Source of the DNA: Nitrospinota bacterium
Lineage (GTDB): Bacteria; Nitrospinota; Nitrospinia; JACRGO01
Length of the DNA: 18,665 bases
NCBI GenBank assembly: GCA_016212295.1
Contig: JACRGO010000023.1
Span: forward strand, 1 to 18,665
Direction: 5' to 3'
Every line of letters starts with the position of its first letter. The stretch's first letter is position 1. Made by a program: the position numbers and the translations under genes. Of the stretch, positions 6,674-17,047 are shown one piece after another. The notes under the pieces are model-generated. The model saw only the letters and a list, made by a program, of their open reading frames with translations, made no database searches and had not been told where the DNA came from.

Positions 6674-6710
6674 GATAATCCGCCTCTAATAAAAATAGAT
6701 AACATCTTTT

Positions 6711-6847
6711 GTAACCGTTCACGGTTCAGGGTTCCAAGTTTTAGGAAACCCTGTATCAACGCTTATCTCAAAAAACCGCTTACCAATGCGGATTTTCATT
6801 AAGCACTGCTAAGCAGTTTAACCAACAGGCCTACCGTGAACGGTTAC
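6711..6847. mobile_element. MITE-like element, 137 bp, IS66-type ends
   Basis: The ends are perfect 15-bp inverted repeats: GTAACCGTTCACGGT (6711-6725) and ACCGTGAACGGTTAC (6833-6847). An 8-bp direct repeat CATCTTTT flanks both sides (6703-6710 and 6848-6855), as a target duplication would. The inside has no ORF but three hairpins: CAGGGTTCC/GGAAACCCTG (6727-6753), CCGC/GCGG (6776-6791) and ACTGCT-A-AGCAGT (6805-6817). IS66-family insertion sequences are known for ends beginning GTAA and 8-bp duplications, so this is likely a non-autonomous derivative. The family assignment is inference. Confidence 0.85.
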
Positions 6848-6857
6848 CATCTTTTTT

Positions 6858-6937
6858 AGCCACGAATGAACACGAATTCACGCTAATATTATTTTTGAGG
6901 AATTGTAATTCGTGTGAATTCGTGTTCATTCGTGGCT
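6858..6937. repeat. Inverted repeat with 24-bp perfect arms
   Basis: A 24-nt arm at 6858-6881 (starting AGCCACGAATGAACACG) is perfectly inverted at 6914-6937, with a 32-nt AT-rich spacer. It begins two bases after the target duplication of the adjacent MITE. There is no T-run suitable for a terminator and no flanking duplication. Transcribed, it would fold into a very stable stem. Confidence 0.85.
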
Positions 6938-7000: not shown

Positions 7001-7030
7001 TTGACAATTCATCATGTTTAAAGCTAGAAT
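7001..7030 (+). promoter_or_regulatory. Sigma70-type promoter for the secreted repeat protein
   Basis: A consensus -35 TTGACA (7001-7006) and a -10 TAGAAT (7025-7030) are separated by 18 bp. The expected start near 7037 gives a leader of about 60 nt, which includes a small GTTCCA-GGCGG-TGGAAC hairpin before the ATG at 7097. Confidence 0.65.
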
Positions 7031-16930: not shown

Positions 16931-17047
16931 AATTTTAGATTTGCGATTTTAGATTTCAGATTTGTGGTTGATTTTTTGTAACCGTTCACGGTTACGATTT
17001 TTTTTATATTCTTCCAATCTAAAATCTTAAATCTGAAATTTCAAATA
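16931..17047. repeat. AAATCTAAAATC-type repeats flanking the MITE remnant
   Basis: ATTTTAGATTTGCGATTTTAG-like text (16931-16962) and its inverted form AATCTAAAATCTTAAATCTG (from 17016) lie on either side of the 18-bp element remnant upstream of ptsP. The same word family forms the leader-coding part of gspH (798-839). Confidence 0.6.
16978..16995. mobile_element. Fused-end remnant of the GTAA-ended element with target duplication
   Basis: GTAACCGTTCACGGTTAC holds the complete 15-bp left end of the 6711-6847 element plus the terminal TAC of the right end. The same 8 bp, GATTTTTT, lies directly before it (16970-16977) and after it (16996-17003). This is what remains if the interior of an inserted copy is lost between its inverted ends. 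It lies 76 bp upstream of the ptsP start. The T-rich flanks make a chance match of the duplication more likely than at the first site. Confidence 0.65.

Follow-up and report, generated by a model that had tools for sequence, protein, structure and literature searches.

A 137-bp miniature inverted-repeat element with IS66-type ends and an 8-bp target duplication in a Nitrospinota genome

The window, i.e. the whole stretch of 18,665 nucleotides from a Nitrospinota bacterium analysed here, contains a 137-bp element at positions 6711–6847. As an earlier note on this DNA had stated, it lies between two divergent genes, one for a radical SAM protein and one for another protein (Table 1). Direct reading of the window confirmed the ends and flanks of the element to the base. 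Its terminal inverted repeats (TIRs) are 15 bp long and form a perfect inverted repeat, and a perfect 8-bp target-site duplication (TSD), CATCTTTT, stands on either side, exactly as had been described. Neither an ORF of at least 80 aa nor a transposase gene was found within the 137 bp, in agreement with the earlier description of a sequence without ORF. The internal hairpins mentioned there are also reproduced: the predicted fold of the element, as RNA or DNA, is a closed 15-bp stem with several hairpins inside it. As RNA the predicted folding energy is −54.6 kcal/mol (z −9.2), for much of which the terminal stem accounts.

The upstream region of the radical SAM gene now contains the element. 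For the plus-strand gene, the best-scoring promoter-like site (11/12) is intact and lies outside the element. An influence on the expression of the two neighbours, as suggested by the earlier note, is not supported. Directly adjoining the element is an inverted repeat with arms of about 30 bp (AGCCACGAATGAACACGAATTCACG and its complement). It belongs to a separate repeat family, related copies of which are numerous both in the host genome and among other families of the class.

Table 1. Features of the window that concern the 137-bp element and its surroundings.
Feature	Position	Strand	Remarks
Radical SAM gene	start 6673	-	start codon some 30 bp away from the left target-site duplication copy
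Left target-site duplication copy, CATCTTTT	6703–6710	.	direct reading; 8/8 match is the commonest class among siblings
Left terminal inverted repeat, GTAACCGTTCACGGT	6711–6725	+	direct reading; the 14-bp end likewise delimits the IS66 transposase genes of L138, L146 and L190/L393
Non-coding interior, 107 bp	6726–6832	+	94–95% identity with the longer siblings L002/L003
Right terminal inverted repeat, ACCGTGAACGGTTAC (= GTAACCGTTCACGGT on the minus strand)	6833–6847	-	direct reading
Right target-site duplication copy, CATCTTTT	6848–6855	.	direct reading; sibling comparison
Inverted repeat of a separate family	6858–6937		adjoins the element directly
Promoter-like site of the plus-strand gene	7001–7030		outside the element
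Another protein gene	start 7097	+	other side of the element
ORF of 789 aa	14620–16989	-	predicted GTG start
Both element ends fused, 18 bp, GTAACCGTTCACGGTTAC	16978–16995	+	flanks GATTTTTT at 16970–16977 and 16996–17003

The host genome assembly (3.74 Mb, 237 contigs, 90.5% complete) was searched for further copies, which the earlier note had expected, and a 153-bp query comprising the element and its flanks gave 37 matches. The 14-bp end GTAACCGTTCACGG occurs at 78 sites in this genome with at most one mismatch, versus one site for the reversed control pattern. When paired GTAACCGTTCACGG ends with up to three mismatches were collected, 41 pairs at distances of 62–281 bp were obtained, a few of which are probably spurious. 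By their interiors these pairs fall into a group of 24 that includes the window copy, a group of 13 and a few singletons, and the two main groups have little in common beyond the ends. Members of the second family (n = 13) measure about 206–252 bp and contain interiors with CATCCCCCTTGGTCCCCC...GGGGG palindromes. Members of this family (L049, L050, L058, L064–L066, L069, L071, L077 and L084) have the same ends and interior CATCCCCCTTGGTCCCCCTTTGCTAAGGGGG palindromes, and several of these show perfect 8-bp duplications. The boundaries of the siblings fall at the TIRs and the 8-bp repeats, which is what had been predicted for the element.

A perfect 8-bp duplication flanks 16 of the 41 TIR pairs, and 23 of the 41 match at seven or more of the eight positions. 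After shuffling of the flank partners (2000 times) a mean of 2.8% and a maximum of 14.6% was reached, and 12 offset controls yielded 0%. The length of the duplication is sharply defined, since perfect duplications amount to 39% at 8 bp and to 0–2.4% at 3–7 and 9–14 bp. The target sites average 81% A+T.

For the detection of empty sites, the element and one 8-bp copy were removed in silico and the joined flanks were searched. Paralogous sites without exactly one element and one 8-bp copy exist for three siblings. The site of the element on contig C235 is empty on C168 (104/112 identical, no gap) and C112, that of the C34 element on C15 and C133, and that of the C233 element, a member of the second family, on C130 and C151. 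The empty sites proposed by the earlier note are thus present for sibling copies; for the window copy itself none was found in relatives, where a 950-bp query matched only repeats. The relatives searched have no orthologous locus of the window copy at the DNA level, and a search of the same-genus genome for the radical SAM protein encoded next to it was negative. Taken together, these elements have transposed with 8-bp target duplication, they share their ends, and they comprise multiple families with empty sites.

The window copy is shorter than its closest siblings. L002 (212 bp) and L003 (205 bp) are 94–95% identical to it over the first ~125 bases and then run on as (T/C)AATGTGGAGCGCCC...CCCTGAAC before the right end, while in the window copy CAGGCCTA is joined directly to CCGTGAACGGTTAC. 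Hence, it is without the segment adjoining the right end (TAATGTGGAGCGCCC...CCCTGAACC) that is present in the copies of 205–253 bp. Because of this missing segment the window copy is, as judged from the sequences, an internal-deletion derivative of a parent of about 205–250 bp. Other siblings bear other internal deletions, and the interior probably represents a neutral filler in which blocks are lost and gained.

A second trace of such an element is present in the window, where both element ends are fused within 18 bp (Table 1). This remnant has its own perfect 8-bp duplication, and a paralogous site without the 18 bp exists on contig C9 (L018/L032). The simplest reading would be an element that lost its interior between short CGGTT repeats inside both ends; such a loss would leave the 18-bp remnant together with the original duplication at 16970–17003. 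The 789-aa ORF has its predicted GTG start within this trace; its true start probably lies further inside the ORF.

The earlier note had assigned the element to the IS66 family on account of the GTAA ends and the 8-bp duplication. This assignment gains support from identical 14-bp ends that bound IS66 transposase genes, recognised as PF03050/NF033517, in other organisms. In Treponema, a 1478-bp element (L393) carries GTAACCGTTCACGG exactly at both ends and a nearly complete IS66 transposase with one frameshift; its flanks, AAAGAATT and AAATATTT, match at 6/8 positions. Both ends are also exact in a 1238-bp element from a Planctomycete of the Sedimentisphaerales (L138), the IS66 transposase of which is deleted, with much of the catalytic domain missing, and the flanks of which match at 5/8 positions. 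One such end lies beside an IS66 gene in Halochromatium (L146), and another in Treponema (L190) on the same contig as L393. All DDE transposases that were recognised immediately within exact ends (L138, L146 and L190/L393) were of the IS66 family. Plasmid IS66 elements with a single ORF agree with the assignment as well, since five of the six examined have GTAA/GTAG ends and perfect 8-bp TSDs. An example is the plasmid element L387 from Nostoc, with GTAACCGTTCACAG and CTAAAAAC, one end of which matches GTAACCGTTCACGG at 13/14 positions. From published work, one end of ISDge4 (ISBst12 group) is GTAACTGCTCAGCA, with an 8-bp repeat (PMC12898284), GTAACCGTCCGGGCA is reported for other IS66 ends (PMC12888890), and IS66 elements of Paracoccus produce 8-bp repeats (PMC3281130). 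Since the same ends bound IS66 genes elsewhere and the published ends agree, the mobilising family was read from the ends and not from the interior.

The element itself was rejected as an autonomous IS66 insertion sequence, because its 137 bp hold no ORF, whereas such a sequence encodes TnpC, accompanied in the classic group by TnpA/TnpB, and PF05717 (TnpB) was not found in the host genome. A resident partner was considered as well. The sole PF03050 gene of the host genome (contig C81) was dismissed, as matching ends are absent within the 4.5 kb examined. Therefore, the mobilising enzyme is not seen in this assembly; it may have been lost, may be unassembled, may have come from a transient element or may be another protein. 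Among 77 genomes of the class, none yielded an intact autonomous IS66 element bearing precisely these ends, although G004 contains a fragment with GTAACTATTCAGCG and G057 a contig starting with GTAACCGTCCGGGC. Phage and plasmid records contained no DNA match to the element. The absence of a same-genome partner is weak evidence, because the assembly is 90.5% complete. The element carries all tested MITE features; of those of an IS66-derived MITE it lacks the autonomous partner in the same genome, which is a supporting and not a strictly defining feature.

The only IS66 domain found in the genus, in both of its genomes, is part of a fusion protein (L063:1656–3776 on the host contig C81 and L111:1378–3762 on contig C44 of the other genome). 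In these proteins an N-terminal TM0106 RecB-like nuclease is fused to the IS66 domain (TIGR03491 + NF033517). The fusions keep DDE-like motifs and have no matching element ends. The fusion is possibly a domesticated transposase.

Short elements delimited by the same 14-bp ends and accompanied by 8-bp duplications also occur in Planctomycetes, Acidobacteria, Parachlamydiaceae and Desulfobacterales and on one viral contig. The viral case is a 124-bp element on an IMG/VR contig (L287:7664–7787), the two ends of which are exact copies of GTAACCGTTCACGG and the 8-bp duplication of which, CTTCGCAC, is perfect. In IMG/VR contigs the 14-mer often lies within coding regions, where it turns up repeatedly in a single reading frame (with VTVHG as a possible translation), so that most viral matches are not elements and L287 is an exception. 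A 1095-bp element from a Planctomycete (L180:5105–6199), with exact ends and a perfect duplication of AAATTTTC, contains as an apparent passenger a Y1_Tnp (RAYT-like) gene together with REP-like palindromes.

Mobilisation by a transposase outside the IS66 family, e.g. of another DDE family that makes 8-bp duplications at convergently similar ends, is in our opinion very unlikely. Such an enzyme is suggested by a host assembly in which no IS66 gene bears these ends, and by the Planctomycete element just described, where the ends and the perfect TSD enclose a gene for a Y1 enzyme. However, Y1 enzymes are not expected to produce target duplications, and consequently the RAYT gene is more likely a passenger. 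The DDE transposases inside exact ends all belong to IS66, and the GTAA start in combination with 8 bp is an IS66 signature, as in the plasmid elements, which likewise argues against a different family.

The earlier note had also suggested that the hairpins may form a structured RNA. A structured non-coding RNA, or a REP/BIME-like regulatory palindrome, the copies of which are kept for their function, would fit the strong predicted folding and the intergenic bias of the copies, 12 of 30 sites being located in mechanically called ORFs (≥100 aa) versus 80% of random points. Purifying selection against the disruption of genes, however, is expected to produce this bias as well. Among 10 copies, none of the 35 consensus pairs shows compensatory change, and no Rfam family matches the element, so that the suggestion was not borne out. 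Moreover, many different deletions are tolerated in the interior, unrelated interiors have only the ends in common, and the TSDs and empty sites show transposition; we thus regard retention for such a function as highly improbable. A chance inverted repeat that happens to lie within a chance flanking repeat would require no transposition at all, but dozens of copies have the same ends and 8-bp duplications. This reading is already refuted and its probability is negligible.

Hence, it is highly probable that the 137-bp sequence is a MITE with IS66-family (ISBst12-like) ends which was moved by an IS66-type transposase in trans. In this process, an IS66-type DDE transposase would bind the GTAACCGTTCACGG ends in trans and move the element into CATCTTTT, gap repair would yield the 8-bp duplication, and the window copy would have arisen from a parent of about 205–250 bp by internal deletion. 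The action of the IS66 transposase in trans is inferred from the ends. A wider proposal, which we consider unlikely, is that many MITE families of Desulfobacterota-like, Planctomycete, Acidobacterial and chlamydial genomes have the same 14-bp IS66-type ends around interiors that are not related to each other, that the ends alone suffice for mobilisation and that the elements keep capturing other repeats and even a RAYT gene. According to this proposal, the TM0106-fused IS66 domain might be a domesticated enzyme with a remaining activity on these elements.

The host genome provides a clean example of IS66-ended MITEs, with multiple copies, multiple families and empty sites, and these elements account for part of its dispersed repeat content. 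The 14-bp end is spread across several phyla, and the end pattern is usable as an annotation probe. The element type is fairly ordinary, and ideas about transposition are unchanged by the finding. An IS66-derived MITE is not described in the papers searched here that mention both IS66 and MITEs, and none of the papers searched gives the exact sequence of the end.

Among known systems, the element resembles the ISBst12 group of single-ORF IS66 elements (ISDge4, elements annotated as ISAva2 and the copies in Nostoc sp. C057) in its GTAA start, the TIR GTAACCGTTCACGG and the 8-bp duplication, the match to this TIR being 13/14 at one end in Nostoc and exact at both ends in Treponema. In contrast to these elements, it measures 137 bp, has neither transposase nor ORF, contains an unrelated interior and is non-autonomous. 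With bacterial MITEs such as MITEAba12 and MITEPsy1 it shares the short length, TIRs, a TSD, many copies and the lack of coding capacity, whereas those have been linked to IS families other than IS66 or to no family at all. Like REP/BIME palindromes it is repeated, extragenic, palindromic DNA with hairpin potential; REPs, however, are without TIRs and a fixed 8-bp target duplication, both of which are present in the element of the window.
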